Below, piece after piece: positions 26,311 to 58,901 of a stretch of 58,901 nt of DNA. The translations under genes were made by a program, and so were the position numbers. Below the pieces are notes generated by a model, which was given only the letters and a program-made list of their open reading frames with translations, made no database searches and was not told where the DNA came from. Each line of letters opens with the position of its first letter. The stretch's first letter is position 1. The DNA is taken from assembly GCA_022539475.1 (NCBI GenBank), contig VCMS01000333.1, forward strand, positions 1-58,901, given 5' to 3'. The stretch comes from Gracilaria domingensis (taxonomy: Eukaryota; Rhodophyta; Florideophyceae; Gracilariales; Gracilariaceae).

Positions 26311-26339
26311 TTGTAGCGTCTATAATATATATGTTTAGG

Positions 26340-26960
26340 TTTCACACCATTTAGGTAGAGGTTGATTAAGAGCAAACAGAGCAAGCATTTATGGAGGCGC
26401 GTGGATTTGGAGATTTTTGGATTTTTAATTGCGGCCGGATTTTTTGTTTTGGAGGATTTTGTGGATTTAGGGCATTTAGAGATTTTTTAAATTCATGAGC
26501 ATGGCGGGATTCATGAGATATAGAGATTTTGCGGATTTAGCGGATTTTTGGATTTTAAAAATTAAGCGCATTTAGCAGATACAGCGCATTCATGGATTTA
26601 GCAGGTATAGCGGCTATAGGAAATTTATAGATTTAGCAGATTCATGGAATTAAGCGTTTTAGCGGATTTACGAGCTTTAGAAAATATAGAGATTAACAGG
26701 ATTTGCAGATGTACGCGTTTTACGAATTTACATGCTTTAGAAAATTAAGGAATCTAGAAGATATAGCAGATCTACGGATTTAATGGATTAAATGGCTATA
26801 GGGAATTTTTAAAATATAGAGATGTACGTGATTCAATGGAGAGAGCGGATTTAGAGATTTATTTGTGTAGGAAAGTTTAAGGATTAGTGCGATTTAGCTA
26901 GTGTAGGTATTTTAGAGATATATGAGGTGTAGGAATTTATAGCGAAAACGATTATTTACG
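26340..26960 (+). repeat. Degenerate GATTTAG-type array at left end, copy 1
   Basis: A/T-rich DNA here is built from variants of GGATTTTTGG, GATTTAGCGG and ATTTAGAGATT. The first third is nearly the same as 42501-42750, and later units drift. It forms the subterminal zone of the element. Confidence 0.7.
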
Positions 26961-27118
26961 GTTTGCAGGAATGTTTCCCGCAAACGGTACTGCGCGCACA
27001 TCGTGACACGATGCGATGCGCAATGTGGCATGCGTGTGGAACGTGTACACAAGGTACAGGTCAACCAGCTATGACAGTGAGACACGTTTGCCAGGACCCG
27101 GAGAGCGGATGTGGATTG

Positions 27119-27155
27119 CAGGAATGATTGGTGCGATTGCAGGAATGATTCCTGC
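27119..27155. promoter_or_regulatory. Palindrome GCAGGAATGATTCCTGC with neighbouring half site
   Basis: A perfect-arm palindrome lies at 27139-27155 and a degraded copy at 27119-27135. The same pair occurs at 43084-43121 in copy 2. It stands upstream of the recombinase gene. Confidence 0.65.
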
Positions 27156-27285
27156 GATCGGGTTCGAAAGCCGGAAATCCTTCCTGCAGTTGTCGTTGTG
27201 ACGTGGACACGGCACAGACGTGGACTCTTTGGACCGGTTGTTGTACGTGGTCCTGTCGCACACGTATTAGAAAATGGTATTAAGT

Positions 27286-27600
27286 AGCGCCAGTGGGCAG
27301 TGGGAGAGCAAGCAAAATTCGCTGCTGCAGCGCAGTCGGTACTGGCCATGCCGATTACGCTGCAGCAACGGGGGTTGCCGGTTCGATGCTCCACATGCAC
27401 GGCATGCTGCATGCACTGGCCATGCACGCTGCACGTCGTGCATTGTGGGGATTTCGTGCCGCACGATGATGGGGTGGCTTTTAGCCACCCCAACGTTTTT
27501 GTTGGGCTGGTCATTTTTTTTTTGTAGCTGAGAGAACAGAGAGCTACTGTGACTAGCACAAGAAGTTGTGCTAGTCAAAAGTAGCTTCGATTCCCTCAGC
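27286..27600. other. Cluster of conserved hairpins, copy 1
   Basis: Hairpins follow one another: a GC-rich 'TGCATGC' palindromic zone, GGGGTGGCT/AGCCACCCC (27471-27491), CCCAAC/GTTGGG (27489-27506), and GACTAGCACAA/TTGTGCTAGTC (27551-27576) with outer arms AGCTACT/AGTAGCT. All recur at 43250-43560 with arm changes that keep pairing. The function, RNA or DNA, is unknown. Confidence 0.6.
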
Positions 27601-29216: not shown

Positions 29217-31844
29217 ATGAGCGATTTCATTTTCCAGTGCATGCTTGGCAATGAAAAGGAGGATACTGGTGCACGTCTAGCCAGTAGCCTAACTGCGAGT
29301 AATAGCAATGGGGAGAAGTCAGCAGTGTTCGTGAACGGCCAGACTGGTGGTAAGAAACCGGTGCAGGCAAAGCTACTTGGCATTGAGCCGAAAGTGAACA
29401 AGAATCAGGCTGAGGAGGTAAACCCCGCAAATGGTCCTGTTCAGAGACGTGGACTACTGTCGACGAAAGCAGTGACCGCTTTGAAGCCGATCCAGGTGAA
29501 GGTTCATCGTCTCGAAGAAGAGATTGTCGACAAAGAAATTGTCGGTGACGGCATTGAGACTCCAACCAGTAAAGAGGGCGAACGCTTTGACGAAGTCGTC
29601 GCGTATAAGGAAACGCTTCCTGCCCGAAGTGACGGAAAAGGACACAAGCAACAAGCCGGAGGTATTACTGGGATATGTATTCCACCATCGAACACTGCAA
29701 TTGAAACGGAAGGAGTTTACGAGCTTACGCAGAAGCAGGGCAGGAAGAACATTCGTACCATATCCGGTGACGGAATTGAAGAGAATACTTCTCGCGATGT
29801 GGGTCCTAAATTCCCCGACTTTGCAGGTCTTGTGGATGAAGACTTTGATAATGTCATAGCTGTTGAAGCGGAGGATCCGAGAAATGCCGAGAAAAGTTCT
29901 CAAGAGGATAAGCGTCTTACGTGCTCATCCAGCAGCATCATTGATCTTATAGAAGACGATATCAACCCAGCAAGGAATGCGGCATGTGCCAAGGTTGTTC
30001 GCAAGCTCACGATGAGCGACGGTTCCCAAGAAGACAAGGATATCGAAGACGTCGTCATCCCTATAGATTTGGAAAAGTTTATGAGGGAGCAGGAATCTGA
30101 AATTGGTGCCATGAATGAAGACGGTGTTGTTGGTCGAGCCGAGATATTCGGTGGAAGAGCGCGGCGTGTTGCTTCGAGTACGGCCCAGAAGAGAGGTGGA
30201 GCAAACCCTCGACTGGGGAGGAGGAAGAGAAGGAGGCAGGCAAGGGATTATGAGGAAGATATTTCGAATGTAGAGATCAGTCCCAAGCAGCTTTGGAAGA
30301 ACATGGTGCAAGAGACTCTTGGAAGGAGCCCAGACCATTTCCGTAGCAAGAACGCCATGTTGAGGGATCTGGATATACGGGTCAGAAAAGGAAGCATTGG
30401 CTATCCTGGGCTGAAGATTTCCGTTGAGAACTGCAGAGACTTGGAAGATGTGTACATGTTGCGGTTCAAGACGAAAGAGCTGCTGCACACAAGAGGTTCT
30501 GGGAGTTTTTCCGTCTTCAGGTCGATTGTTGGCCAGTTCGTGAGGTGGGCGATCGCTAGTGGGAAGCTCCGCTTGTTCGACGGATGGAAACCTCTCGCAG
30601 TGTTCAGTTTGTTGAAGGAGGAACATCTGGTCAGATGCTTTGTGAACTATTTTATCCGAATCGCTTCGTTCAACACAATTGCGAGCAAGTGCAATGTGTT
30701 GAGAATTATGTGCCAGTACGCCGCTGTGCGCATGACGAACCTCGAAGAACGCAACCAGATTGCACGGGTGGAGATGTATCTCGGAACCGCTTTCAACTCA
30801 GCGAAAGGAGGAGCGAGGGAGAACACCCGGAAGCTGCAGAGCGCGGAAGAACGTATCAAGAACCAAACGATTGTCTCGCGCAAGCAGATCGAGAAGGGCG
30901 TAAATGTCGCGCGAGCGCAGTTGAATGGCATGATCGAGTCGTTCTCTGCGACGGTATGCAAACTGTCACGAAAGGCGGCAGTGAAGGAAATGATGGCAAC
31001 CAAAGGTCTGCTTGACAAGTGGTGCATCAATTTTCTGGCGCTGATCGCGCTAACAGGTGGTGGACAGAGGCCTCAGGCTTATGCGAGGCTCCAATGTCCG
31101 AGCGAGTTCACTCTGGAAGAATGCATCGATGATGAGTTGAAGAATCCGAAAGGTTTGTTCGAGATGAAGACGTTCCGGGAAAAGACTGCGCGGGCGCTCG
31201 ACGTTCCGAACATCAATTTCCCGCGGTTGATTATGCCCTACGTGGCTTTCCATGTTGATCTCGTTCGTCCGATGATACTAAGGAGGAGGAAGTTGCCTTT
31301 GACCATTTCGTTCAAGAAAAACAGGCCGTTGTTGTTGCATTCCTGAACTGGTGTATTGCTGAAATCGTCGCATATTTCTCGAACCATCAAAACGTTTATG
31401 ACGAGTGTACACCCCTCGCTCACCTCGGTTACGGCCATGACTCTGCGAACGAGTTTCGCCACAGCCATGTTGCATGATTATCGGCGTGGGAAGTTTACGA
31501 AGGATGGGCAGGAAATGAACGAGGATAAGTTTTTAGGCTTGGTAGCCAAGCAGATGAACACGTCTGTTGAGCAGCTGCGCGGTACTTACATGGCGTCTCG
31601 CAGCAGTGACTTCAAGGAGGTTACGGCCATTATGACGAAGCACTTCTGCATGATTTTGGGCGAGGATTCGGATGACGAGGATGGAAGTGGGGGAAGCGAT
31701 AGTGAGAATGATCTGAGTGACAGCCAGCGTGGGACGGAGAGAGGGAGTGTGGAGGACGAGAGCAGTGACGACGAAGAGGAAGAAGAAATAGGCACTGGAG
31801 TGCGGTTATTTGACGACGAGGAGGAATCTGAAGACGAAGAATGA
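29217..31844 (+). pseudogene. Tyrosine recombinase, copy 1, with one nonsense codon
   Basis: This frame would encode 875 residues and aligns along its whole length with the intact 886-residue copy 2 protein. A single TGA at 31344-31346 (codon 710) stands where copy 2 has CGA (Arg), a C-to-T change. Everything after it stays in frame to 31844. The stop removes the catalytic 'TLRTSFATAML' Arg and the 'GTYMAS' Tyr, so the truncated 709-residue product would be inactive as a recombinase but would keep the N-terminal half and box I ('TGGGQRPQ'). A SIM-like 'SSSSIIDLIEDD' lies near residue 240. The tail is acidic and Ser/Glu-rich. It could act as a dominant inhibitor, which is speculative. Confidence 0.85.
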
Positions 31845-33046: not shown

Positions 33047-36019
33047 CTAACTGGATGTGGTGGACTTCAATTGTGCAAAGATGTCCTGTGCCCTCTTCAT
33101 GCAGAGCTCCCATTCGCGTGTCAGTTGTTTGTCCCTATTTTCCCTGGCCAGAACGCTACCCTCGGCAACCATTGCGGAAAGAATATCGGCTGACTGGGAT
33201 GAACTTGGCAGCGGTTGACGAGTGTGAAATTTAGAGGAAAATGCGAGATTGGGAGAACTGTGATGATCGTTACCGTTCGGAATATCAGTGCTTACAACTT
33301 TCGAGTTATCGGATTGAAAATCTTGGTACCTCTGGACAACGATTGGGGTTAGTTCACTGAGGTACACGTCCATTTTGGAAGGATCATTGGATCGGGCGAT
33401 ACTTTCAGTAATGTTCGGGGCGCCTAGGATACGGTCGATGATACCAGTCCTTGCCGCTGGTGGGGGAGGTCGCGTATCCAACCGGAACAAGCCATTGAGA
33501 ACCCCGATGAGAGCCTGGCGGACCGGCGGTGTCGGATCCGAAAGGAGAGCAGTTGGAGCCTTTGGAGGTGGTAGCGAGGCTTGAGAAGATTGCGGTGGAG
33601 CTTTGGCGTGTGTCGAGTGAAGCGGGGCGACAATGTTGAGCTCAGGAGTTGCATAGGGAGTGTTTTGGGAAGAGCTTTTGACATCCCTCTTCTTCCTTGG
33701 GGGTGAAGGCATGAAATCATCTTCGTCACTATCGTCATTGTCATGCCGTTGGGATAGCGATTGGTTTTGGGCAGCCGGTACAAGAGCAGGTGGTTGAGAT
33801 AAGGAAGTGGGGGATATACGCGCATTGGCAGGCTTAGCTGGAGAATTCGGTTTAGATTCCGTTTGTTGCGGCGGAGGGTGGGAGTCGTGAACTAGAGGCG
33901 GAGTGGAAAGCCGGCTTCCGATCGCACTTGAAGAACTGCTGATTGATTGCTGTTCCGAAGGCCAAAAAAAGGTACGAGCTGAAGCGGGTTTCGATGGATT
34001 TGCGCGATACATGGTCTTGTAGGCCCGCAGTCGTTGATGAATAGAGCTTGTGTATTTCGGGAAGGGATAAGATTGAAAGCACTCCTGAAGATATCGGTGC
34101 ACGGCGTCCGGAGACAAAGTCAAAAAGGGCCTCACGTCTCGAGAGACAAGAGAGGCGTGGTAGGTGACATAAAAGCCACATTCCAGACCGGTCTGGAGCG
34201 GTTCTGGTTTCCCTATCCAGTGAACGGGGAGAAAGTTTTGAATATCATCTGCGCTTATGTCACCACCGCCTGGATATACCAATGAAAGGTACTTCATGAT
34301 GTTCTGTTCCATGCCTTTGTGTAGACTTTGTTTGGGTCCTAAACTGTCCAACCAAAAAATTGCTGCATTGGAATCGGTTTTAATGTTTGCGGGGAGACTG
34401 GCATTTTTGGGGGAGGATGGGTTCTTCTCTAGAAACCGAAGCAATTTCGGGAGACCGCAGATGATAGCGAGAGACCAGTGATTATTTCCGCATAACAGGA
34501 GCAGCGTGATCGAGGTGTGCCAAACTTTGTTGTGGGGATTGTGGTTGCTCTTGGAATATCTCTCAACTTTCTGAATGAGCTGGGTTTTGGCGTTCTTGCC
34601 AATCCTTTTGAAGGGTTTATCGAACCATCCGGTAAGGTAAGCGGAGTCCAACACGTAGACGTCAGAGAGAGTAGTGGACGACCAGTTGTTAAGATAGTAC
34701 AACGTAAACATAACGCAGTCTTCAGTTGCCATGGAGAGTCGCTCGATACGATTTGCGTCGCTGTTCCACAAAGTGAAAGTCACTTGCAGAACACCACCGT
34801 GCAACATGGCGGCTACTTCGGAGTACTTTGAACTTTCGTACTTCGTGATTGCGTCGATTACTAGCTCTGCGAGATCAAAAGATCGAGCTTCTTGTCCTCG
34901 CTTCTTCATTTCATCTAGTTTCAGGCGTACTAAAGAGATCACCTCCAGTTTATCCTCGCCAATATCAAGAGCAGTGGCGTTAGAACCAGTACCGTTGCAT
35001 TCCTTCTTCGCTTTCTCCACGCTTTCCTTCACCTTATTTTCGAGCTCTTCGACCAGCTTCATCGTCCCCATTTGCTTCCAAGTAATGAACGATTCCCATC
35101 CAGGGGGAGCGTCAGTGAAAGTGGTAGCGTCATTGTTGCGGTTCTTTCTCTTCCGGCCACGCTTCTTACCATCCACTTCGTGTCCCGTTGAGTCCGAAAA
35201 TACACAAGTGAACGGAAACCCTCCGCGCCGTCGTGTAACCCACAACAACACTGTGTTCTTAATCTTTTCGACGGTCCAATTTCGAACAGTGTTCAACGAA
35301 CTTTTGTTGAATCTCACCGGACCAGTGGCCTCGAGGTAGTAGAGGTCATCGAGGACATCCGCTTTGAGAAGGTGTTCAGCCCCTGTCATATAACCCTTCT
35401 TCGTAGGGTCCGAAGGGCTCTCATCAATGAAAGCAATGGCGAATTTGTTTCGGCCTTTCGCATCCTTCTGAAGTTCCGCATAAGTGTCCAAGAGCTTGTT
35501 CTGCGTCATGGCTGACAGCTTTTTCTTCCCTATTTCGCGAATTCTCATCGTCTCCTGCCAAACCCAATACCTCTTCAGCCGGCCAAACAAGCCGACTTGT
35601 TGGATAATGTCGTAAGGAACTGGTCGAGGGTTGGTTGTCTCAACATGGAACGCCAACAAAGGCTCGTGAGTTATGAGATTGAGTTTCGTGTCAAACTCCT
35701 TGAGATCCCGAACATCTATTTCCTGATACGGGAGAAACAGGATATGTTTCGTTTGAGCGGCTAATAGGAGACGATGTCCTCCGCTCACCACCATAAGTTT
35801 ACCGCACAGGATTCCAAGAGTTCCGCGAATGACAAGGAGAGGTTGACTCGTCTGGTAGGCCGACGGTGGCCCCATTTCTTCGGATAGAATTTGAAGATAG
35901 GTCACGGAGGAGTAGCGGCCAACGATAGGGCCTAGAAAGAGATCTATGCTGGCGAAGAAAATGGGGCCACAACGCGCTTCTAGTATGCGGTCGTGGACTT
36001 TGGAAGAAAACGAAGTCAT
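33047..36019 (-). CDS. Ulp1-like C48 cysteine protease, copy 1
   Basis: The frame encodes 990 residues and starts at the ATG that aligns with copy 2. Ulp1/SENP proteases process SUMO or related ubiquitin-like proteins. The catalytic set is visible: His514 in 'CGNNHWSLA', Asp558 in 'FWLDSLGPKQ', Gln609 and Cys614 in 'LQTGLECGFYV'. The order H-D-Q-C and the Q-x-x-x-E-C-G spacing fit C48. A conserved 500-residue N-terminal half follows no family I know. A Lys/Arg stretch near 285-294 ('KKRGRKRKNR') is a likely NLS, and a Ser/Pro-rich linker and short C-terminal helical region follow the protease domain. The gene is intact and convergent with the recombinase. Its substrate may be SUMO on the recombinase or on host chromatin. 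Confidence 0.8.
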   Translation of the reverse strand: MTSFSSKVHDRILEARCGPIFFASIDLFLGPIVGRYSSVTYLQILSEEMGPPSAYQTSQPLLVIRGTLGILCGKLMVVSGGHRLLLAAQTKHILFLPYQEIDVRDLKEFDTKLNLITHEPLLAFHVETTNPRPVPYDIIQQVGLFGRLKRYWVWQETMRIREIGKKKLSAMTQNKLLDTYAELQKDAKGRNKFAIAFIDESPSDPTKKGYMTGAEHLLKADVLDDLYYLEATGPVRFNKSSLNTVRNWTVEKIKNTVLLWVTRRRGGFPFTCVFSDSTGHEVDGKKRGRKRKNRNNDATTFTDAPPGWESFITWKQMGTMKLVEELENKVKESVEKAKKECNGTGSNATALDIGEDKLEVISLVRLKLDEMKKRGQEARSFDLAELVIDAITKYESSKYSEVAAMLHGGVLQVTFTLWNSDANRIERLSMATEDCVMFTLYYLNNWSSTTLSDVYVLDSAYLTGWFDKPFKRIGKNAKTQLIQKVERYSKSNHNPHNKVWHTSITLLLLCGNNHWSLAIICGLPKLLRFLEKNPSSPKNASLPANIKTDSNAAIFWLDSLGPKQSLHKGMEQNIMKYLSLVYPGGGDISADDIQNFLPVHWIGKPEPLQTGLECGFYVTYHASLVSRDVRPFLTLSPDAVHRYLQECFQSYPFPKYTSSIHQRLRAYKTMYRANPSKPASARTFFWPSEQQSISSSSSAIGSRLSTPPLVHDSHPPPQQTESKPNSPAKPANARISPTSLSQPPALVPAAQNQSLSQRHDNDDSDEDDFMPSPPRKKRDVKSSSQNTPYATPELNIVAPLHSTHAKAPPQSSQASLPPPKAPTALLSDPTPPVRQALIGVLNGLFRLDTRPPPPAARTGIIDRILGAPNITESIARSNDPSKMDVYLSELTPIVVQRYQDFQSDNSKVVSTDIPNGNDHHSSPNLAFSSKFHTRQPLPSSSQSADILSAMVAEGSVLARENRDKQLTREWELCMKRAQDIFAQLKSTTSS

Positions 36020-36299
36020 GATGCGGGAGCGAGATAGGTTGGAGACGTTATCGCGAATAACACGATAGGAAACAGCGGTGCGTGATTCTTAGACCGAATG
36101 AGATGCGAAGGTGCGTACAAGTTATATGTGCGAACGCCGAAACAACGCGAGTATTATGTGTAGCTGATATGTGATACCTGACGCGGTGCAGATATTGGGT
36201 GTGTCGGTGAAAGAGAGCATGAGAAGAGAATGGGCGGAAGGACAGGAGAGGTGGCATAGGAAGCATGGCAACGATAGAGAGTTATGGAGCTCTCGCCGC

Positions 36300-39669: not shown

Positions 39670-41694
39670 ATGGAAGGGTCAACGAAGAAAAGGATCGGAA
39701 ATTTTATGGGAACTGTTGGAAGACCACTACAAGTGCTGGTAGAGCGAAGTGTGGCAGAGGGATTCGCAGGGTTCTGTTCAGGAACCTCGAAATGTGTTGC
39801 TTGGAAAGCCGCGTATGATGGCCTCATTGAAGGATTCGGATTTGGAATCGCAGCGCATGGTATAACTCCAAGTGAGTTCTCATCTATCTATGGTCATCTG
39901 AAGGGAACGGATGATGATGGAGATGTACGCACAGGACTACGTTCGCAACATGTACCAACAACACTGAATGAAGTATATCGTGGTCCAAAGAATTCAGCGT
40001 GTCTAGTACGACTTGCCGAAAGACCGAAAGCAAATGAAACTCTGGAATCACTGATTGTGGCGCATCAGTATGTGATAAGCACAGTTCTGGAAAGAGGAAT
40101 TGTCGAGGAGGCTCACGGCAGAGATTGTTCGGAGATGAAGCTTTCTGAACATCCGCTTGTACTGACAACCGTATCATGTCGCTTCAAGATAGAGATCCCC
40201 AAGCTCACTGGAATGCAGGACTTTCTTCGTGTGTTGGATGAGACTTTGGAAACGGTAGATGTCGGAATGGAACGCAGTTTACTGCTGTCCAAGAAGCGAA
40301 GTTTTCCGTCCCACGGATTTCCGATATGGCAAAGTGGATGGTCCCGGAATGTGCGGGAATCTTGCGAACGAAAAGTATGTGGGTCTTTCATCGTGTATAC
40401 CTTGCTACCGACACCTACGGGGGGGTTCTTGGCTGCCGCAATGGGGAAGGTTGGTGTATACGTGACGGTGACCGAGCAAGTTATACACGGATTCTCCAGT
40501 AAGAGAGGGCAGCGTGGTCTTTACTACGAATATGTTCCGCCTTTGAATCCAATGGAACCGTCGCAGTGCAGGACATATTACATGACTATTGGCACCAGTA
40601 TAGTGGTACCGAGCACGTTTGCTGTTCGCTTCGGTGCCCATGAACGGCATGGAGTGCAAGTGTTTGGATATCTCGTAGAATCGAGAGGAACCCTTTCGAA
40701 GCGGATGTGCTTCTTGCGGAGGGAGGATTTGGAGCTATATGAGGAAATCGACGAGTACGAGGAACCTATGGAAGTTATCGAGGAACTGGATGAGGGGCGT
40801 GCATTTGAAACAGTAGATTGGTCTGTATTTTCACAGAGATTTGAGGGTGGGAGGGATGGCGTTGTGGGAACCATACTCTCCACGTTGGATGTGAACCTCA
40901 CCACGCCGGCTCGGAAACGTCTTGTTGAAAAGATGTACAAAGCACTTCCCCCTGGGAAGAACGTGAAGGATATGTACGCCGTGAATCCTGTGTTGCGATT
41001 AGTGCACTTTGATGAGAGCGTCATGTACCGAGACGACACTGACGCACCGGAGCAGCGAATGTGGATCGGGGATGGGGAGGAATGGATGGTGGATGACGTG
41101 CCGTACAGGTATATCGAACGTATGCTGAAAGGCAAAATAAGTTTCCCGTTCTCCCTCGGCAGAATTCATGATGCTGTAAGAAAGAAGATGGACACGCATC
41201 GAAAGGCAGGCAAGGGGATTAAAATGTCTGACGGTTTGGAAAGCGTTGAGAACGGATCTGAGAGCGAACGGTCTGTGGGAGACGGATCTGATGGAAATAC
41301 CTCGGAAGATGAAGTTATATTGGAGGAGTGTAGTGGATCGGAGAAAGATGGAGGCGAGGACGGTTATAGTGATGGTGAAGGAGCTACTGGAGAGGATGTC
41401 AATGGTGGTGAAGCGGAAGCTAATGCTAGTGCAGCGGGAGCTAATACTGTTGAAGGGGAGGACAAGTTGGGAGAAAATGCTGGTGAAGAAGAGGAGAATG
41501 GTAGTGAAGGAGAAGTCATTGGTGGTGAAGGGGGTGACAGGTCGGAAGATAATGCTAATGATGAAGAAGAGAACGCTAGTAGAGAAGGAGAAGGTACTGA
41601 TGGGGAAGACGGTGAGGGGGATGGAGCTGGTGAAGGAGGTGAGGGGGAAGGAGATTCTGGTGAAGGAGAAAACGTTTCTGGTGAAGGAGAATAA
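39670..41694 (+). CDS. Element protein of unknown function (ORF3), copy 1
   Basis: The frame encodes 674 residues from the ATG at 39670, which aligns with the start of copy 2. It runs 80 codons further upstream, but that part overlaps tandem-repeat DNA and has no match in copy 2. Conserved blocks shared with copy 2 include 'PLQVLVER', 'WKAAYDGLIEGFGFGIAAH', 'ITPSEFSSIY', 'RNVRESCERKVCGSFIVYTL', 'VVPSTFAVRFGAHE' and 'EEWMVDDVPYRYIE'. I recognise no domain. The last 130 residues are a highly acidic Gly/Glu/Ser tail that is repeat-rich at DNA level and is not conserved in sequence. It may be a DNA- or chromatin-binding partner of the recombinase, which is a guess. Confidence 0.75.
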   Translation: MEGSTKKRIGNFMGTVGRPLQVLVERSVAEGFAGFCSGTSKCVAWKAAYDGLIEGFGFGIAAHGITPSEFSSIYGHLKGTDDDGDVRTGLRSQHVPTTLNEVYRGPKNSACLVRLAERPKANETLESLIVAHQYVISTVLERGIVEEAHGRDCSEMKLSEHPLVLTTVSCRFKIEIPKLTGMQDFLRVLDETLETVDVGMERSLLLSKKRSFPSHGFPIWQSGWSRNVRESCERKVCGSFIVYTLLPTPTGGFLAAAMGKVGVYVTVTEQVIHGFSSKRGQRGLYYEYVPPLNPMEPSQCRTYYMTIGTSIVVPSTFAVRFGAHERHGVQVFGYLVESRGTLSKRMCFLRREDLELYEEIDEYEEPMEVIEELDEGRAFETVDWSVFSQRFEGGRDGVVGTILSTLDVNLTTPARKRLVEKMYKALPPGKNVKDMYAVNPVLRLVHFDESVMYRDDTDAPEQRMWIGDGEEWMVDDVPYRYIERMLKGKISFPFSLGRIHDAVRKKMDTHRKAGKGIKMSDGLESVENGSESERSVGDGSDGNTSEDEVILEECSGSEKDGGEDGYSDGEGATGEDVNGGEAEANASAAGANTVEGEDKLGENAGEEEENGSEGEVIGGEGGDRSEDNANDEEENASREGEGTDGEDGEGDGAGEGGEGEGDSGEGENVSGEGE

Positions 41695-42053: not shown

Positions 42054-42440
42054 ATGAACGTTGAAGGTGAGGTTGTGAATAATAGATGGACGGTTGGAAA
42101 GAAATTGTACTATTCGGATAAAGCCACAGTATATGAAGCTAGTGACGCACTTAATCCCGGAAGCCAGTCTGTGATTAAGTTCGCCGTTGCTTACGGTACG
42201 GATGAAGATGGACAAGAGCATGTTTCCGGAAAACTGTTTGATTCTTTCGAGATTCTAAGGGATATAAAACTGGGGGATGTCAGCCTACGAGTTCCGCAAG
42301 TGTATGAAACAGGAGTTCATTCAACCATTAGGTATGTGGTTATGCAACAATTACATGCCACATTGTATGAGCATTTGTATTGGTCAAACAACCATCTTCC
42401 TACAACAACCATTCTAAAAGTTGCGTTCCAAGTATTAGGG
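42054..42440 (+). pseudogene. Protein kinase N-lobe, cut by element copy 2
   Basis: From the ATG at 42054 about 129 residues fit a CK1/VRK-type kinase N-lobe. They include 'RWTVGKKLYYSDKATVYEA' (glycine-loop region, lacking the usual glycines), 'SVIKFAV' (VAIK-like Lys), 'FDSFEILRDI' (helix C Glu) and 'RYVVMQQLHATL' (hinge). The frame ends in 'AFQVL', just before the catalytic loop, where G-rich DNA and then the left end of copy 2 begin. The C-lobe is not found nearby. The position, directly after ORF3, matches the kinase remnant of copy 2 at 56955-58098, so this is probably an element gene. Confidence 0.6.
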
Positions 42441-49564: not shown

Positions 49565-52500
49565 TTACCCTTGTTTCTGGCACTTCATCATGGACAACAG
49601 ATCTCTCGCTCGCGCCATGCAACGTTCCCACTCTTCCCGAAGATGCTTATCCTTGTGTTGTTTGGCGAGAGAGATACCTTCCACCACTATATCCGGCATG
49701 GCAACAGAAGTGGGCACAACTGCTGTCGGTGAACCGCGTTGACGTACCAAAGAAGGGCCCGCCACAGGGCCCGGAACCGCAGTGGACAATGTGGGCTTCG
49801 TTGTGTTGAAGGCTACAATCTGAAGTTCACGATACCTTTTGACGGCCATTGGGGTGAGCAAGGTGAGATAGGATTCCATATTTGCGGGGTCTCTAGATTC
49901 GCGGATAGCTTTGTTAATTTCACTCGTATCCAACACAGCTCGAATGACATCACTCTTAGCAGGTGAGGGGGAAGCTCCCATATCCAGCGACAATAGTCCA
50001 TTGAGAACACCAATGAGGGCCTTGCGCACCGGCAAGGAAGGGTCCGGTACTGCACGAAGTGGCAATGAGATCTTGTTCTGTGACGAAATTGGTGGAACGA
50101 TTTGCATTGGCGGTTTCAAGGTGTTCACCGGTATTACGGTTTGTGAAAAATCCATTTGCGAGGGTGCGTTTGGAAGTTGTGTGATCTGCAGATCCCGTTT
50201 AAGCTTCTTATGAGATGGGTGCGGCATGAAATCATCGTTGTCATTCCCAACAAATGGTATGTCGCACCGGGAAGGTTGTGAGGACGGTGGTGTAAAAGCT
50301 GGCACGGATGGCGGGGCTTCGGCAGGATCACAATTCTTTTTCTCATCAGACCGAAAAGCACCGAGGTTGGTACACTTGTTCGCAGGTTCACTCTTCTCAT
50401 TCTGGCCATAAGGAGCCGCTGGCACGTTTGGAGTCGTCTCGGTACTTTCACGGTTCGTTTTCTGTGCAGATACAGACGGTCCTTCAATTGCAAGGCGAGA
50501 AGAATCGTGCGCGTTTGATGATGACGTAGTAGAGCGCTTTGGCACTGGTGGTATGGGCCAGTGAAACGTTCGTGCTGGAGCGGCATCGGTCGGGTTAGCC
50601 CGGTACATGGTCTTGAAGGCGCGAAGTCTTTGGTGGATATCATTTGTGTACTTGCGGAATGTGTAGTCTCCGTAGCAGCCTTCGAGATAGCGTTGAGCGG
50701 CATTTGGGGAAAACGAAAGAAATGGAGCTGTGTCACGGCACACCAGAGAGGCGTGATAGGTGACATAGAACCCGCATTCAACATTTGTCTGCAACGGTTT
50801 GCGAATCGTGTCAAAAGACAAACGCTCTTTGAGAGCCTGAGCCGTTAGCTCTCGCTTTCCAGGGTAGCAAGCGCAGAGGAATTCGATAAGGTTCTGCGCC
50901 ATACTCTGATGCAGAGATTGCTTTGGACCCATGCTGTCCAGCCAATAGAGCCTCGCTTTTGTAGCATTCGCATTATCTTGTGAGGAAACGTTGCGAATTG
51001 GAGAAGAACTTTGGTTTTCTAGCTCGTTGAACAGGGTTGGAAGGGAACATACAACTGCTAATGACCAGTGATTGTTTCCACAAATGGGGAGCATGGTGAT
51101 CTGAGTTTCCCACACAGCGTCATGAGGGTTGACAGTGTTTCTTTTATATCTTCCGACCTTGTCTCGCAGTTGCTCTTTATTACTCTTCGCCAAGGTATGG
51201 TACGGTTTCTCAAACCATCCAGATAAGTACGCAGAATCCAAGATATATATGTCATTCATAGTCTGTGTGGACCAATTGTTGAGGAAGTACAACGTAAAAA
51301 CAACTGCCTCGTCAGTAGCCATTGAAAGTTTCTCGATACGACTCGAGTCTTCATTCCATAAGGTAAAGGTCTTTTGTAACACGCTGCCGTTCAGAATCGT
51401 AGCGACGTCCGAGTACTTGCTAGTGTCCAGTTTGACCACCGCTCGTGTCACTAGATCCGCAAGATCAAATAATTTGGGGGCCTTACCACGCTTGCTCTTC
51501 TCTTTGAGCTCTTCTCGCACGAGCGAAAGCACTTCCAGCTTGTCTTCGCCGACATCCAATGCAATTGTTCCCGGTCCACTGTTCTTTACGGCTTCCTTCT
51601 TGATTCGATCCACTTCCTCTTTGACCTTACCCTCCAGTTGGTCTACGAGCGTCATCGTCCCGATCTGTTCCCAATTCAGATAATCTTCCCATCCTGGAGG
51701 GGGATCCTTGAGTCGTGGTGATTCATTCTCGCTTCGCCTCCTCTTTCGTCCCCGCTTCTTCCCATCTGTCTCATTGCCAGCTGTGTCCGAAAACACGCAC
51801 GTGAATGGGAAGCCACTCTTTCTTCGTGAAACCCATAGTGCCACTGTGTTCTTGATTTTTTGCACTGACCAGTTGCGCACGGTGTTCAACGAACTCTTGT
51901 TGAACCTCGTTGGGCCGGTTGCCTCCAGATAGCACAGGTCCTCTAACACATCAGCTTTCAACAACCGTTCTGCTCCGGTCATGTACCCCTTTTTCGTCGG
52001 GTCTGCCGGGCTGTCTTCAATAAAACCGATGGCAAATTTATGCCGACCTTCCGCGTCTTCTCTGAGGTCTGCATACGTGGCAAGCAACTTGTTCTGCGTC
52101 ATGGCAGACATCTTCATCTTCTTCCCCGACTCGAGAATACGCTGCTGCTCTTGCCACACCCAGTACTCCTTGAGCCGGCCGAACAATCCCACCTGTTGCA
52201 TGATATCATACGGTGCCGGGCGAGGGTTCGTAGTCTTCACATGGTAAGCCAAAATTGGCTCATGGATTGCCATATGTAGATTGTTGCCGAACTCTTCCAG
52301 GTCTCGTACATCGATTACCTGGTAGGGTAGGAAATGTAAGTGCTTGACGAGTGAGGCCAAAAGCAGTCGGTGCCCTTCGCTAACGACCATCAATTTCCCG
52401 TACATCGTCTTCTGTACTCCTCTGATCACGAGAAGAGGCTGGCTCATTTGATAGCTTGCGGGTGCTCCCATTTCTTGTGAAAGAAGTTGAAGATAAGCCA

Positions 52501-52621
52501 TGGACGAATAGCGGCCGATAATAGGGCCGACGAAAAGGTCAATACTGGCCAAATAGATAGGGCTACATCGCGCTTCGATAATGCGGTCATAGACCTTCTT
52601 CGAAAATCTCTGATGCGGCAT
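49565..52621 (-). CDS. Ulp1-like C48 cysteine protease, copy 2
   Basis: From the ATG at 52621, which aligns with the copy 1 start, this encodes 1018 residues; 73 upstream codons are open but unrelated to copy 1. Catalytic residues are His518 in 'CGNNHWSLAV', Asp562 in 'YWLDSMGPKQ', Gln611 and Cys616 in 'LQTNVECGFYV', the last close to the Ulp1 Q-x-N-x-D-C-G signature. The N-terminal half is the better conserved part between copies ('EARCSPIYLASIDLFVGPI', 'PYDIMQQVGLFGRL', 'KKGYMTGAE', 'NKSSLNTVRNW'). It carries a basic 'KKRGRKRRR' likely NLS at 288-296. The C-terminal third is Ser/Pro-rich and variable. The intact frame in both copies suggests selection on the protease function. Confidence 0.8.
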   Translation of the reverse strand: MPHQRFSKKVYDRIIEARCSPIYLASIDLFVGPIIGRYSSMAYLQLLSQEMGAPASYQMSQPLLVIRGVQKTMYGKLMVVSEGHRLLLASLVKHLHFLPYQVIDVRDLEEFGNNLHMAIHEPILAYHVKTTNPRPAPYDIMQQVGLFGRLKEYWVWQEQQRILESGKKMKMSAMTQNKLLATYADLREDAEGRHKFAIGFIEDSPADPTKKGYMTGAERLLKADVLEDLCYLEATGPTRFNKSSLNTVRNWSVQKIKNTVALWVSRRKSGFPFTCVFSDTAGNETDGKKRGRKRRRSENESPRLKDPPPGWEDYLNWEQIGTMTLVDQLEGKVKEEVDRIKKEAVKNSGPGTIALDVGEDKLEVLSLVREELKEKSKRGKAPKLFDLADLVTRAVVKLDTSKYSDVATILNGSVLQKTFTLWNEDSSRIEKLSMATDEAVVFTLYFLNNWSTQTMNDIYILDSAYLSGWFEKPYHTLAKSNKEQLRDKVGRYKRNTVNPHDAVWETQITMLPICGNNHWSLAVVCSLPTLFNELENQSSSPIRNVSSQDNANATKARLYWLDSMGPKQSLHQSMAQNLIEFLCACYPGKRELTAQALKERLSFDTIRKPLQTNVECGFYVTYHASLVCRDTAPFLSFSPNAAQRYLEGCYGDYTFRKYTNDIHQRLRAFKTMYRANPTDAAPARTFHWPIPPVPKRSTTSSSNAHDSSRLAIEGPSVSAQKTNRESTETTPNVPAAPYGQNEKSEPANKCTNLGAFRSDEKKNCDPAEAPPSVPAFTPPSSQPSRCDIPFVGNDNDDFMPHPSHKKLKRDLQITQLPNAPSQMDFSQTVIPVNTLKPPMQIVPPISSQNKISLPLRAVPDPSLPVRKALIGVLNGLLSLDMGASPSPAKSDVIRAVLDTSEINKAIRESRDPANMESYLTLLTPMAVKRYRELQIVAFNTTKPTLSTAVPGPVAGPSLVRQRGSPTAVVPTSVAMPDIVVEGISLAKQHKDKHLREEWERCMARARDLLSMMKCQKQG

Positions 52622-52993
52622 GACGCGTAAGCATCGGTATTCTTCAATGTTGTGTTGAACTCGTGGTACGCGGAGAGGGCTAGGGATGAGGTTGTTGCGC
52701 AATAAAGAAGCGTGAGGTAGGATAGGATTTGTGTGAGGATACGGCACGCGCACCTGCGAGCGGCATGAAGAGCGCATGGGAGATCGAGAGGTAAGCGACG
52801 ACGGTTGAAAATGTGTGTAAAAAGCAGCGGCATTTCCCAAAAAACTTTTTCAAAAAAACGAAACGGAGGGAAGTATACCTCACATACAGCCATATTTCAG
52901 CGGTGCTGGCTTTATGTGCCAACATTGCAACACGTCATGCGATCATCCTTACAGTGCAGCACTTGTCCATGGTTTGGTTTGGTAAACAGAAGT

Positions 52994-53907: not shown

Positions 53908-55863
53908 ATGGAGGAGAAGAAATCCTCGAAGAGTAGATTGCGGAGCTTTTGTGGTACACCGCAGAAACCACTGCAAGTTCTCGTTGATCGAAACGTAGCA
54001 GAAGAGTTTGCTGGATTCGACACGGCAAGTACGTTGTGTGTGGGATGGAAAGCCGCGTTCAACATGTTAATGTACGAATTCGGATTTGGAACGGTTGCTC
54101 ACAACATAACGCCAAGTGAGTATTCTGCCGTCTACGCAGATTTGGAAATGGAGGAGAAACACGGGGACGTGCGGACTGGTTTGCGTGCACGACATGTTCC
54201 TGTGGAGATGGATGTGGCGTACAGGGGCCCGAGGACGGAACCGTACCTTGTACGATTGGGGAAGAGGAAGGATGAAAATGAAACTCTGGAATCTTTAGTT
54301 GTTGCGCATCAATTCTTGCTAAGCTGTGTTCTGGAAAGAGGAATTGTTGAAGATGTTCATGGAGAGCAATGGGCTAAGGTAGAACTATCGAAACATCCGC
54401 TCGTGATGACAAGTGCTGTATGCCGGTTTAAGATACGCATTCCGCCCCTCAGTGGAATGGTAGATTACGTTCGCGTTCTAGACCAGGACTTATTCTCAGT
54501 TGATGTTGGAACGGAACGGAGTCTTCTGCTTGCGAAGAAGCAAAGCTTCCCCCTGCGTGGACTGCCAGTTTGGAAGAGCGAATGGTCACGGAACGTGCGA
54601 GAGTCATGCGAACGAAAAGTATGCGGTTCATTTATCGTGTACACTTTGTTACCTACTGCAAGTGGCGGTTTTGTCTCAAATAATATGGATAAAGTTGGAA
54701 TCTATGTCACAATCACTGAGGAGGTGGTTCGAGGCAGCACTGGAGGAAAGGGAGAACGCGGACTGTACTACGAGTATGTCGGTCCCCTGAATGCAATGGA
54801 ACCGAGAGAGTGTAGGACGCTGTTCATGACGATTGGTAGTAGCATTGTAGTACCAAGCACTTTTGCTGTAAGGTTTGGCGCTCATGAAGAGCATGCTGTC
54901 CAAGTCTTTGGTTACTTGCTGCGAGCTCGGAGAACTGACGGGAAACGAATGAGCTACATGAAAAGAGAAGATCTCGAGTTGTACGATGACCTGGAGGAGT
55001 ACGGAGCCCCAATGGAGCTTGTTGAGAATCTACATGATGTGCGCGGACTGGAAACTGTAGACTGGAACTCATTCGGAAGGGCCTATCCTAAGGGAAGAGA
55101 AGGCGTGGTGGGCACTATACCAAGTGTACTCGATGTTGAAATGACAACGTCGTTCCGGAAAAGACTGATCGAAACAGTGCACAAAGCGGTACCATCATGC
55201 ATGAATATAAGTGAAATTTACAAGGCCAATCCTGTGAGTAAGTTAGTGAAGTACGACGAGAACGTGAGGTACCGAGATGACAGGGACGCGTATGAGCGAC
55301 GGCTGTGGCTTGGGGACGGAGATGAATGGATGTTTGATGGCGTTCCTTACAAATATATCGAAAGTAGTCTGCAAATGAAGTTGATATTCCCCTTCGACCT
55401 GACGGATATACAGGAGGCCGTGCAACAGCAGATTGCAATGACTATAATAGAGGAAGCTGAAGGAAGTGATGGCAGTGAAAGGGACGAAGCCGCTGAATCA
55501 GAATCTGCTGTATCTGAGTCAGAAAATGAAAGCGCTGGACAGAAAGGTGAAGAAAAAGGAACTGAGATGGCATGCAAAAATAACGAAGATTCCCACGACG
55601 GATCTTGTAAGGATCATCCGTCTGAAAAGGAGGAAGAAAAGAAGGGAGAAAATAGAATTGTTGGTGATGTGCATGAAAGTAAACGCGAAGAAGGCGCGCC
55701 CAGGGGCCCTGTAACAGATGATGGTAGTGTGCACAAAGCAGACATGGAGGCCGCCGCTAATGAGAAAATTATAGGTGAAGACGACGAGGATAGTGAGAAG
55801 GAGGGTGAAGTGAAAGGGGAGAGTAAGCCTGAGCTTGGGAATAAATCGAAGACGTCGAAGTAG
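53908..55863 (+). CDS. Element protein of unknown function (ORF3), copy 2
   Basis: The frame encodes 651 residues and aligns with copy 1 from its first residues ('PLQVLVDRNVAEEFAGF') to about residue 520 ('DEWMFDGVPYKYIE'). The best-kept blocks are 'SEWSRNVRESCERKVCGSF', 'IVVPSTFAVRFGAHEEHA' and 'GVVGTIPSVLDVEMTT'. The C-terminal 130 residues are again acidic (Glu/Ser/Lys) but differ in sequence, so only the charge seems to matter. I see no known domain, signal peptide or membrane segment. Two diverged yet open copies argue for function in the element cycle. Confidence 0.75.
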   Translation: MEEKKSSKSRLRSFCGTPQKPLQVLVDRNVAEEFAGFDTASTLCVGWKAAFNMLMYEFGFGTVAHNITPSEYSAVYADLEMEEKHGDVRTGLRARHVPVEMDVAYRGPRTEPYLVRLGKRKDENETLESLVVAHQFLLSCVLERGIVEDVHGEQWAKVELSKHPLVMTSAVCRFKIRIPPLSGMVDYVRVLDQDLFSVDVGTERSLLLAKKQSFPLRGLPVWKSEWSRNVRESCERKVCGSFIVYTLLPTASGGFVSNNMDKVGIYVTITEEVVRGSTGGKGERGLYYEYVGPLNAMEPRECRTLFMTIGSSIVVPSTFAVRFGAHEEHAVQVFGYLLRARRTDGKRMSYMKREDLELYDDLEEYGAPMELVENLHDVRGLETVDWNSFGRAYPKGREGVVGTIPSVLDVEMTTSFRKRLIETVHKAVPSCMNISEIYKANPVSKLVKYDENVRYRDDRDAYERRLWLGDGDEWMFDGVPYKYIESSLQMKLIFPFDLTDIQEAVQQQIAMTIIEEAEGSDGSERDEAAESESAVSESENESAGQKGEEKGTEMACKNNEDSHDGSCKDHPSEKEEEKKGENRIVGDVHESKREEGAPRGPVTDDGSVHKADMEAAANEKIIGEDDEDSEKEGEVKGESKPELGNKSKTSK

Positions 55864-56585: not shown

Positions 56586-56752
56586 ACAGTGTAAGCCTCC
56601 AGTGTAAGACGACGTCCATATGGGCCCCTGCGTGTCCTGTACTACGTGTAACATGGATATATAGGTAGCTCGCCGCGCTTGGAGCCTGATGCAAAACCAT
56701 CTCGGGTCACGGCCTCAGTGCCATTTATTTCAAGGATAAGAGTGAAATAAAT
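56586..56752 (+). promoter_or_regulatory. TATA-hairpin module 5
   Basis: A GACAGTGTAAGCC box is followed by TATATAG at 56658. The stem ATTTATTT/AAATAAAT lies at 56723-56752, 65 bp from the TATA. A shared 'CGCCGCGCTTGGAGC' lies between them. Confidence 0.6.
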
Positions 56753-56870
56753 CGCCTATCACGCTGCCATCGTTTTGTTGCAACACTTTTGGGTACCGTG
56801 GCCCATATTGAAGAGGTGCGGACGTGTACATCTGTACAGCTGGTACTACCTGTACGTCGTGTACGATGGG

Positions 56871-56965
56871 TATATAAAGGCTCCGCCGCGCTCGGAGCGG
56901 GATGCAAGTTCAACTAGGGTGAGGGCCTCGCTGCCATTTATTTGAAGGAAAGGCATGAAATAAAT
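56871..56965 (+). promoter_or_regulatory. TATA-hairpin module 6
   Basis: This is a duplicate of module 5, 213 bp downstream. TATATAAAG is at 56871 and the stem ATTTATTT/AAATAAAT at 56936-56965, again 65 bp from the TATA. The right arm overlaps the first kinase-like codons. Confidence 0.6.
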
Positions 56966-58098
56966 GGGTCATCGGGAAGTCGTCGTTTCCGGTATGCTTC
57001 GCCTTTGTTTCGGAAAGTGGCGCTTGCGCGCAAGAATGAATCAGGCGCATGTAGTATCTCTATCTTACGTGATCGCTATCGTCGCCATCATGCTCCGGGC
57101 ATCAGACGTCTCGGCACAAGGCTTATCGGTTTGAGGGGAGATCTTCTGCTCTCGTGGTCTCGGCTGTATTTCACATTGATTCAATGCAGCAACCACGTTT
57201 GTAATGACTTTGATACTGTGAAGACCGACTGGATAACTCAGGAACCTTGGCGTCGTTGCTACAGCATGTCGAAGTTTTCATCCTCTGCTTCTGAATGAAA
57301 GGGGCTTGCATCACACATTGTGCTGGTTGGAAGCAATGCACCACGAAATCATGCCACCTTCGGGACCTCTCCATCGCCGCGAATAATCAATCCTCGACCT
57401 ATACTCTAACACTGATCCGTTGCAGTGGTTTCTTTGCTATGATCGCTGCGTCACTGAACCGAATTGCATGTGTGCCGGAACAACCTGAGTTGTCACCCTC
57501 TACGCAATCCTATGTGCTCCGATGTACGTGTCTATACGCTGCAGCGATACCCCGATGGCGACGGCTGTGGAACTAACCACACGCCCTCGTGAGAACTACC
57601 GCTTCACAGCGCATGTGCCGTTTTTCGGGGTGAGACTTTCTCTTCGTGCTATGTTGGTGAACGGCGATCCCGGGTATGAGGCAGTAGATAGCTATGCCCA
57701 GAGCGTGTTGAGATCTCGAGAGGATGTTGACACGTAATTCGCTAAGCAGTTTAGAATGTTGCGGAACGGTGAACACGAGGTGTGTCTTCTGATAACTCAC
57801 ATGTGAATGGTATCGGCGATAGTGCCATCACTTGGTAATGATATGGGACCTGCATTCGAGCAATGCGCGAAACAACGAAATGCGAGATATGGTCCTCTGG
57901 GCCCTTGACGACAGTGGTGTGGACAGCTGTGACGAAATCATGGAACAAATACCGTGGGTATCTGAAATTGGTTTAAAGTTCGAGGAGCTGGGCAGGGAAC
58001 AGTCGTGGACATTCATAGTAATGGGACATGAGCGATGCCAACGGAGATATGGTACTCAGAAGCGCAGATATTATACCGAAGTACAACGTAATCGTTGA
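56955..58098 (+). pseudogene. Protein kinase pseudogene, copy 2
   Basis: Kinase landmarks appear in order but in changing frames. They are 'NKWVIGK' (like 'NRWTVGK' of the copy 1 kinase), 'FHIDSMQQ' (hinge, like 'RYVVMQQ'), 'TLASLLQHVEVF', 'CWLEAMHHEIM', then 'CHLRDLSIAANN' resembling the catalytic H-R-D-L-S-x-x-N, 'TLTLIRCSGFFAMI' in the DFG region, and 'RFTAHVPFFGVRLSLRAM' with 'AVDSYAQSVL' in the C-lobe. Several frameshifts and stops break it. It lies directly after ORF3, the same place as the kinase of copy 1. The family would be CK1/FunK1-like; I judge this from motifs alone. Confidence 0.5.
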
Positions 58099-58355
58099 TA
58101 CTTGTCATAATTGTATGTAAGCGGATGATACAGAACGGAAATAATTATGACAATGTTCAGGTACTATATTCTGAGTAAGGCGATAGAGAAGAAATACATC
58201 AATTAGGCTGTCGATTTAACAGGGCGTGAACCAAATCGGAAGCATGAAAAGACATAAAAACGGGATGGTTCTCAGGTTCAGTAAGAAAGGAAAGAAACGG
58301 CACCATTGCGCGTGGAGGAGGAGATACAAAGCAGTACAGACATACATCTGCAAGC

Positions 58356-58901
58356 ATGTCTGGGCGTCGTATAGTTCTTACCTTAGCAGGTCAGCGGTTT
58401 GTATCAAAAGAGTTACCAAGAGAAGAAAATGCTGGTGGCGACAGCGGTGAAGAAGGCGAACGTGCTTTCGTAGAAGGAGCGCCGGCTGTAGCCAGTACAT
58501 CAGTCGAAAGTGATGGAGGAAATGTAAAGGGGGTTGGAAGCGCAGAGGCACAAAGCGCCGGTGCTGAGAACGCGGGTGCTGGGAACCATGGTGCTATGAA
58601 CACAGGTGCGGGGAATGCGGGCAATGTGAGCGTGGAAGGTGCGGCATTAGGAGCTGCAAGTACGGGGGTTGAAAGTGGAGGGGCTGAAATGGCGGAAAAT
58701 GGGAATGAAGTGGAATCCCCGCAGAGCATAAATGAGAATGAAGAAGAGGAAGGGATTGAGGGGATTGAGGATGTGTTACAACGCTTGGTATATGCCGTGT
58801 GCAAAGCACGAGTAGAAACCAGTGTTCTTCAAGGAATGATGGAGGGCCATGCAAGGGGATTGAGGAGGTTGGAGAGCGCTATTAAAAAAGTACGAAAAAC
58901 A
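58356..58901 (+). CDS. Partial acidic protein running off the right edge
   Basis: From the ATG at 58356 the frame is open for 182 codons to the end of the window. After 'MSGRRIVLTLAGQRF' comes a long Gly/Ala/Glu-rich, repeat-like region (units like 'AGAENAGAGN'), then an amphipathic helical part ('DVLQRLVYAVCKARVETSV', 'RGLRRLESAIKKV') that may be a coiled coil. I recognise no family. The low-complexity part resembles in style the acidic tail of ORF3 in copy 1. It may be a fifth element gene or the gene next to the element. Confidence 0.45.
   Translation, partial: MSGRRIVLTLAGQRFVSKELPREENAGGDSGEEGERAFVEGAPAVASTSVESDGGNVKGVGSAEAQSAGAENAGAGNHGAMNTGAGNAGNVSVEGAALGAASTGVESGGAEMAENGNEVESPQSINENEEEEGIEGIEDVLQRLVYAVCKARVETSVLQGMMEGHARGLRRLESAIKKVRKT

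Follow-up and report, generated by a model that had tools for sequence, protein, structure and literature searches.

The genome of Gracilaria domingensis probably harbours mobile tyrosine recombinase (YR) DNA elements that live at telomeres, a reading that we hold with moderate confidence: fixed left ends, repeated integration at GGGG|(A)TT, erosion and healing would together give rise to head-to-tail arrays of right-truncated elements. The evidence comes from the window, a stretch of 58,901 bp that is a whole contig and contains no N bases, and from related loci of the same genome. The window has the following features.

23800..26307, no strand: host DNA flanking copy 1; ORFs of a mitochondrial carrier (24429-25064, minus) and a Rad9-like protein (25203-25775, minus), both from Pfam
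26308..26329, plus: left end of copy 1, exact motif GGGTTNTNNNNNCTATANTATA
26311..26910, plus: telomere-like left subterminal region of copy 1, degenerate GGATTTAG-type repeats
29217..31844, plus: tyrosine recombinase of copy 1, ORFs 29202-31346 and 31347-31844 with an in-frame TGA at 31344-31346
33047..36088, minus: C48/Ulp1-like protease of copy 1, Pfam PF02902, 21.9 bits (cut-off 20.7)
39673..41694, plus: P6, a novel conserved protein, copy 1; the ORF opens at 39322
42054..42440, plus: kinase-like ORF (label by eye only), truncated at the end of copy 1
42435..42467, plus: short telomere-like tract between broken copy 1 and copy 2, with 3 of the 4 TTAGGGG sites of the window within 33 bp
42469..42490, plus: left end of copy 2, exact motif
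45204..47864, plus: tyrosine recombinase of copy 2, intact, 886 aa from ATG, ORF 45189-47864
49565..52849, minus: C48/Ulp1-like protease of copy 2, ORF of 1094 aa, Pfam 22.4 bits (cut-off 20.7)
53908..55863, plus: P6 of copy 2, ORF 53896-55863
58356..58901, plus: ORF of P7, an uncharacterised protein, cut by the contig end
58854..58861, plus: AGGGGATT, the uninterrupted form of the element A/B join of contig C405, by comparison with that contig

Self-blastn of the window found two direct copies of one multi-gene element in the same orientation, starting at 26308 and 42469 with exactly matching left ends. The copies agree at 90% of DNA positions over 26308-26886 and 42469-43048, at 82% over 27082-28059 and 43048-44061, and at 79% over 28879-31846 and 44860-47866; further along, the figures are about 67% for the protease and 65% for P6. 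Self-blastn and the ORFs are in accord with the first-pass annotation, which described two diverged copies of the same orientation, with a common left end and the same gene order. Copy 1 is at least 16 kb long and stops at about 42438, within the kinase-like ORF. The left end of copy 2 follows directly after the tract at 42435-42467, and copy 2 extends past the contig end. The window total of four TTAGGGG sites is not above chance (4.44 expected), and their clustering alone is striking. The arrangement is unusual because left ends are intact while right sides are truncated; this pattern, the tract and the telomeric setting had no place in the first-pass annotation. The host flank at 25229-26304 has paralogues on nine other contigs (71-82%, some in pieces). 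Three of these nine were read at the junction position, where the sequence diverges, and all three lack GGGG.

The element start is fixed. The window holds exactly two occurrences of the left-end motif, with 0.08 expected at up to two mismatches. A search at up to one mismatch gave 32 matches, 17 of them exact, against 4 for the reversed control. Exact motifs at C195, C251:35191 and C184 lie upstream of a YR with opposite facing. Copy 1, copy 2 and C211:113688 share a common element start in different flanks. Every A-type left-end match (3 of 3) and every B-type match at 93% or more (6 of 6), the query included in each case, starts at query base 1. Over 1135 bp, C100 and C12 are identical to element B of C405 after rounding (100%), and the three copies lie in different flanks. 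In the 14 left junctions that were read, flanks differ and the start is fixed within each type. The flanks end in GGG at 13 of the 14, in GGGG at 11 and in a TAGGG-type sequence at 9, counts that treat the junctions as independent and take all retrieved DNA as background; if GGGG is part of the element, the target is informed only by the bases before it. A longer telomere-like tract stands just before the left end at 5 of the 14 junctions, and many junctions have a single telomere-like unit only.

Contig C405 shows one such left junction beside its uninterrupted form in the window. P7 of the window is near-identical in element A of C405 up to window position 58858, where element B, about 21 kb long, breaks in; B has its left end near C405:65834 and its presumed right end near C405:44850. 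The B1 position corresponds to a AGGGGATT already present in the uninterrupted A sequence, which together with the single-unit junctions implies that insertion at single internal sites would be possible too. The remainder of P7 of element A (window 58859-58901) had no exact 14-20-mer match among the loci examined, and B1 therefore provides no rejoined right flank. A true palindrome was also considered for C405 and rejected: its two B elements point towards one another with unsequenced DNA in between (N at 33113-33260 and 38901-39700), and element C starts beyond B1.

The right sides end at many points, and are followed by telomere repeats, by the next left end or by an assembly gap. A telomere-like tract separates a broken unit from the left end that follows it at 42435-42467 of the window, on C405 (from B to C), and on C455, C251 and C106. 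At C382, B is cut about 1.2 kb in and continues as AGGGGATT(T) repeats; at C2 the same repeats take over from a cut B-like element and extend for about 900 bp to an N gap. Exact matches to a 31-bp telomere pattern are confined to three places, C2, C9 and C382. The arrays of C2 and C382 were seen to adjoin an element stump directly; an unread interval of 2.8 kb separates the array of C9 from a recombinase match upstream of it, in the same orientation. The reversed control of the pattern search, with 25 matches versus 22, is uninformative, as reading this repeat backwards leaves it unchanged. From the form of the repeat and the stump caps, we infer that AGGGGATT(T) is the host telomere repeat. 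The subterminal region at 26311-26910 has 16 telomere 7-mers and none on the other strand; 200 shuffles of it gave a mean of 3.5 and a maximum of 14. Left of the element stands GGGG(A)TT, and the right side of B enters telomere-like repeats that hold the same letters. The presumed natural right end is based on two copies, C405 B1 and C251. Among the few readable right sides, neither a junction rejoined to the original target nor a target duplication was seen. Units point to the near contig end in 9 of 12 cases within 15 kb, 12 of 17 within 20 kb and 15 of 21 within 25 kb (38 units, excluding C13, C43, C57, C73, C184, C238, C262 and an odd protease match on C275), an orientation that is only suggestive.

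The gene set of the elements is a tyrosine recombinase first, followed by a C48/Ulp1-like protease, P6 and variable further genes. Nine complete loci of about six distinct lineages in the G. domingensis genome have YR (plus), protease (minus) and P6 (plus) in the same order and orientation, and seven further loci have consistent pairs. By our reading of the locus table, 16 of 18 protease clusters and 12 of 16 P6 clusters belong to a complete module or a consistent pair; the order is broken on C275, by one protease/YR pair. Counting loci with the same gene order was the check proposed with the first-pass annotation, and the nine complete modules uphold the linkage of YR, Ulp1 and P6 and reject a chance neighbourhood of genes. 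Near-identical copies of the element occur in different flanks. Element B and the element of C2 match at 93% of DNA at the left end and 98% in the right part, and at 94% (YR) and 59% (P6) of protein; the elements are, as judged from such comparisons, mosaic.

The tyrosine recombinase with a C-terminal R...R...Y was recognised correctly at first pass: R630, K668, R756 and Y803 are invariant in 11 aligned recombinases, of which some are near-identical and two partial. XerD models match three of nine recombinase members (best 3.2e-4). At E up to 1, Pfam listed no GCR1_C, DUF3504 or DUF3435 for nine YR domains, each trimmed to its conserved part of 445-463 aa. The dN/dS of 0.19-0.20 indicates that the YR is under purifying selection. 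Recombinase relatives elsewhere (P0010, P0011, P0013, P0014 and P0015; 8000 candidates scored) have 31-58% identity over 36-99% of the query. The C48 assignment of the protease also stands, by the narrow margin over the Pfam cut-off in both copies, and by eye the protease of copy 2 has what we take to be the H, D and C of the C48 triad. Near-identical copies of the latter protease are found at C211 and C405. The two P6 copies are 53% identical; P6 has no Pfam family, its best PDB match reaches only E 0.31, and 7999 scored candidates included no homologue beyond G. domingensis. In the protease and P6, synonymous sites are saturated and pN is 0.27-0.31. Both proteins probably support mobility, because their linkage is kept and they are under purifying selection.

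A kinase had been proposed as the fourth gene of the module, and this was rejected. The kinase-like ORF has no kinase match in Pfam (E up to 10, also with the whole ORF) or in PDB, and copy 2 has no such gene up to the contig end. Its 21 genome matches, itself included, contain three close relatives (C106, 66%; C382 twice, 52%), none beside a recombinase module, and the rest are at 22-34%. Both C106 and C382 bear B-type or B-like left ends. Pfam found no reverse transcriptase (RT) or DDE transposase in 27 of the 48 window ORFs of at least 150 aa or in another 8 ORFs from elements B and C, a scan outside which C405:54488-56453 inside B lies.

These data are consistent with a cycle in which the recombinase would insert the element, as a circle, at GGGG|(A)TT inside the telomere repeats of a chromosome end. 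The chromosome end might afterwards erode into the element, telomerase could heal the eroded stump, and the next element would integrate into the healed tract. Repetition of this cycle would lead to head-to-tail arrays of right-truncated elements.

The elements could instead be Crypton-like and insert at any short AGGGG(A)TT, a site common in G-rich subtelomeres, so that the telomere link would be a by-product of site choice and breakage. The AGGGGATT present in uninterrupted element A at the place of B and the single-unit junctions agree with this, but we regard it as unlikely, since longer tracts precede 5 of 14 left ends, GGGG is absent from the three flank paralogues read at the copy 1 junction, and 0 of the readable right sides rejoins its target. 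Passive carriage, in which homologous recombination of subtelomeres or break-induced replication multiplies the arrays and the recombinase is not needed, would account for mosaic elements such as B and C2 and for near-identical long copies on several contigs. Against this, the flanks of near-identical elements change precisely at the left end, a switch that would not be expected from exchange between shared flanks, and the YR is under purifying selection; we regard passive carriage as quite improbable.

Less probable again is an endogenous virus, in which case the elements would be what is left of a large DNA virus whose recombinase targets telomeres, as for the nimaviruses of shrimp. Insertion into telomere repeats, and possible concatemers, are described for nimavirus relatives that have a tyrosine recombinase (PMC10871703), but none of 65 pattern matches was confirmed as a viral contig encoding a recombinase relative, and the Pfam matches of the ORFs scanned included no capsid, polymerase or other viral family. 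Element B, at about 21 kb, is also far from the 278-401 kb of majaniviruses. That the head-to-tail joins are chimeric contigs is hardly credible: scaffold N gaps do occur where tails face or arrays end (C405, C2 and C9), but the succession of stump, telomere-like tract and same left-end base recurs on several contigs with different sequences, and the window has no N.

The first-pass annotation had seen a cargo-bearing relative of Cryptons, of which the large cargo-bearing YR element holds, given nine modules and near-identical copies in different flanks; strict Crypton membership is not supported, as Pfam listed no Crypton or Starship domain. Fungal Starships are also large, carry cargo and have a YR gene close to one of their ends; unlike them, the elements described here have no DUF3435 match listed, and their genes and target differ. 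HeT-A and TART arrays have the same orientation, lie at chromosome ends and are distally truncated. Proteins of non-LTR retrotransposons were not found in the ORFs scanned here, and telomere-like repeat caps are present. In Drosophila, HeT-A and TART are non-LTR retrotransposons that replace telomerase (PMC5537684). Terminons are giant Penelope-like retroelements at bdelloid rotifer telomeres, up to 40 kb long, described as multi-gene telomeric elements in head-to-tail arrays, where short stretches of telomere cut the copies off on one side (PMC6431247). Arrays of this type, truncated at short stretches of the presumed telomere repeat, are present here; Terminons use a reverse transcriptase and RNA, whereas the elements here have a tyrosine recombinase, and no Penelope-like RT was found in the ORFs scanned, which are part of all frames. 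TATE of trypanosomatids is likewise a YR element, a retrotransposon with RT and RNase H clustered in tandem at a fixed telomere-repeat position, GGG/TTA (PMC6681497), but its gene set differs and RT and RNase H were not found in our scanned ORFs. Majaniviruses, which are telomere-inserting endogenous nimaviruses, also tie a YR to telomere-repeat insertion, and reads bridging their telomere tracts suggest concatemers or episomes; their genomes, in contrast, span hundreds of kb and have viral genes (PMC10871703). A precedent for a YR with a C48 protease is in oomycete Cryptons: Cryptons, especially CryptonF-2_PS and some CryptonS, have a YR and no RT, some with an Ulp1-type peptidase (PMC3212892). 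In the ORFs scanned here no RT was found. The elements are larger, have further conserved genes and are telomere-associated, and neither GCR1_C nor DUF3504 was listed; as to the paired 4-6 bp terminal repeats of Cryptons, the left side has GGGG(A)TT, and these letters recur in the telomere-like repeats on the right of B.

We found no published description of such elements in the open-licence literature, outside which most subscription journals lie. The best-known arrays of mobile elements at chromosome ends consist of reverse-transcriptase elements, which are able to copy themselves onto an end. Terminons are one such case (PMC6431247). If our reading is true, a recombinase element with the same array structure would represent a second route, in which telomere repair is tied to DNA transposition. 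Tentatively, these elements might be a class of YR DNA transposons that renews itself, and perhaps the host ends, on freshly healed telomeres, as a DNA-transposon counterpart of HeT-A and Terminons; the diverged recombinase relatives elsewhere hint that the class possibly spread through red algae, and the telomere-like left ends may target or protect ends. The data also provide AGGGGATT(T) as a candidate telomere repeat for Gracilaria, and some of the gaps and contig ends in the assembly may be due to the elements. In this system the erosion of ends, their healing and re-insertion could be followed from sequence.

The first-pass annotation had placed two same-orientation element copies in the window, and comparison of the window (entire contig C333, 58,901 bp) with itself bore this out: copy 1 starts at 26308 and copy 2 at 42469, both in direct orientation. 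Each carries the annotated tyrosine recombinase (YR, + strand), C48/Ulp1-like protease (Ulp1, − strand) and novel conserved protein P6 (+ strand). The copy 1 recombinase contains one in-frame TGA, and the contig end cuts copy 2 within a further ORF, P7. Over 99% of its length the window recombinase matches FGB62_211g017 from Gracilaria domingensis at 100% identity, with FGB62_333g01 as a second match; this red alga is therefore the host. Ahead of copy 1 the window contains:

1347–2819: cluster of GC-rich repeats, nested inverted and tandem
8243–8986, − strand: HAD-like hydrolase ORF, host flank
13151–13669 and 16142–16660: direct repeats of 519 bp, 98.8% identical, possibly LTRs of a small retrotransposon
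25229–26304: sequence family with members on nine other contigs (71–82% identity), at whose edge copy 1 joins

YR, Ulp1 and P6 form a genuine module. Searching the genome (77.9 Mb, 680 contigs, other contigs being named C plus number) with the three proteins gave 53 recombinase, 31 protease and 24 P6 match rows. After omission of three overlapping recombinase rows at C405 and C454, the remaining 50 and all protease and P6 rows were used, and merging neighbouring rows left 37, 18 and 16 clusters, respectively. Counting loci with the same gene order in the host genome had been proposed as a check, and the order YR(+) Ulp1(−) P6(+) recurred complete at nine loci (C333 twice, C405 three times, and C211, C2, C100 and C454), with seven consistent gene pairs (C12, C66, C100, C184, C251, C275 and C301). 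Since the nine include near-identical sets (C333 copy 2, C211 and C405 A; both C405 B elements), they represent about six lineages. Exceptions were one C275 pair that breaks the gene order and C13, a single weak match; four of the 16 P6 clusters (C12, C310, C329 and C337) are unlinked. No protease adjoins 24 of the 37 recombinase clusters in module order, and therefore the module accounts for only part of the recombinase family.

In an alignment of 11 recombinases, R630, K668, R756 and Y803 (positions counted from the ATG of copy 2) occupy invariant columns. None of the Pfam integrase models matched the window recombinase copy; among nine members, Phage_int_M matched one (0.0096) and XerD three (best 3.2e-4). 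The C-terminal part aligned to a PDB chain with an LRHSFAT motif (E 0.0074), named RaiA by its depositors. Relatives in other assemblies show 31–58% identity, and no IMG/VR viral contig was confirmed as encoding one. The P6 homologues found came from G. domingensis alone; P6 matched no Pfam family, and its best PDB match has E 0.31.

The elements are of types A, B and C; the window copies are type A, and C405 carries two B elements, one called B1. The recombinase dN/dS was 0.19 (copy 1 vs copy 2) and 0.20 (B vs C2), and pN was 0.27–0.31 for the protease and P6, whose synonymous sites are saturated. These values indicate selection on the encoded proteins. The C2 element and C405 B share 93% DNA identity at the left end and 98% over most of the right part, with 94% protein identity in YR and 59% in P6; window copies 1 and 2 show a similar gradient, from 90% to 65%. 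The elements are mosaic, and have likely exchanged genes with each other.

Every close copy found retains an intact left end. Within each type, the A ends (window 26308, window 42469, C211:113688; n=3) and B ends (C405:65834, C405:12751, C100:42248, C12:560013, C382:71915, C2:619392; n=6) begin at the same base in different flanks. Although their flanks differ, C405 B1, C100 and C12 have a rounded identity of 100% over 1135 bp, implying that B-type elements moved recently. The motif shared by A and B, GGGTTNTNNNNNCTATANTATA, had 32 matches at one mismatch or fewer (17 exact) vs 4 for the reversed control, with 2 occurrences in the window vs 0.08 expected; the third type, C (left ends at C405, C192, C455 and C251), does not fit it. 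The left 600 bp contain 16 telomere 7-mers in A and 16 in B (means 3.2–4.2 and maxima 10–14 in 200 shuffles) and zero on the other strand; type C has 3 (mean 1.0, maximum 6), not a clear enrichment. At C195:160617, C251:35191 and C184:44214 a recombinase gene is preceded by an exact left-end motif that faces the other direction; these loci may belong to a related family whose layout differs. Motifs at C425:18011 and 18039, 28 bp apart and the second with 1 mismatch, may mark a B left end of which hardly anything is left, followed by another element.

The right sides stop at different points:

copy 1: in the kinase-like ORF (a label given by eye)
C405 A: in P7
C100: after the protease
C66: just past P6, with the next left-end motif 47 bp on
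C382: about 1.2 kb in
C2: in the right part

The natural right end of B likely lies near C405:44850, judging from two copies, this one and a 78%-identical copy on C251 that shares it; B would then be ~21 kb long. Within C179:157168–166495 a 313-bp piece resembling the B right part occurs at least seven times, at ~1.3 kb spacing, and the series ends beside a left-end-like motif with 1 mismatch.

At the 14 left junctions read, the flank ends in GGG at 13, GGGG at 11 and TAGGG-type sequence at 9. At five, a longer telomere-like tract precedes the left end:

window 42435–42467: three of the window's four TTAGGGG, a total no more than chance, the clustering being the point
C405: between B and C
C455
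C251
C106: kinase-like gene upstream

GGGG is absent at the copy 1 junction point in all three flank paralogues read (from the nine contigs, 71–82% identity); as these are paralogues and not alleles, this is only suggestive that the G-run came with the insertion event. At C2:597726–598589 a truncated element is followed by ~900 bp of clean AGGGGATT(T) repeats and then an N gap, and at C382:73150–73232 such repeats follow B cut ~1.2 kb from its left end. A similar array at C9:71953–72859 runs into an N gap, and a recombinase match oriented the same way lies 2.8 kb upstream of the array; the element stump was read directly at C2 and C382 alone. A 31-bp exact telomere pattern, which shorter tracts escape, had 22 matches in the assembly, only at C2, C9 and C382. 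Its reversed control (25 matches) carries no information, as reversal leaves the repeat unchanged. We infer that AGGGGATT(T) is the host telomere repeat, a candidate for Gracilaria; in the excerpt of a review, other repeats are given for red algae and Gracilaria is unmentioned (PMC7046594). C382 also has kinase-like genes at 60259 (+) and 90857 (−) and, besides the capped B left stump near 73.1 kb, a fragment of type C at 100% identity, adjoining an N stretch.

The elements had been called Crypton-like. The recombinase is a feature in common with Cryptons, some of which also carry a C48 peptidase (PMC3212892); however, Crypton domains are not among the families listed for these recombinases and terminal repeats are unproven here. 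The present combination of features was not found described in the papers searched. Terminons form arrays of this structure as well, but rely on reverse transcriptase (PMC6431247), and TATE elements (PMC6681497) and telomeric nimaviruses (PMC10871703) are precedents for a tie between tyrosine recombinases and telomere repeats.

What the elements show is a head-to-tail order with precise left ends, truncation on one side, and telomere-like tracts and caps. A live rival explanation is that they insert at single AGGGGATT sites: uninterrupted A sequence carries AGGGGATT (window 58854–58861) exactly at the position of B on C405. Ascertainment favours short tracts: a long telomere tract separating two elements would interrupt the assembly, so that mainly short ones are visible. 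In the mechanism we propose, a circular form of the element would recombine at GGGG|(A)TT in the terminal repeat, and erosion followed by telomerase healing may set up the next round of insertion.
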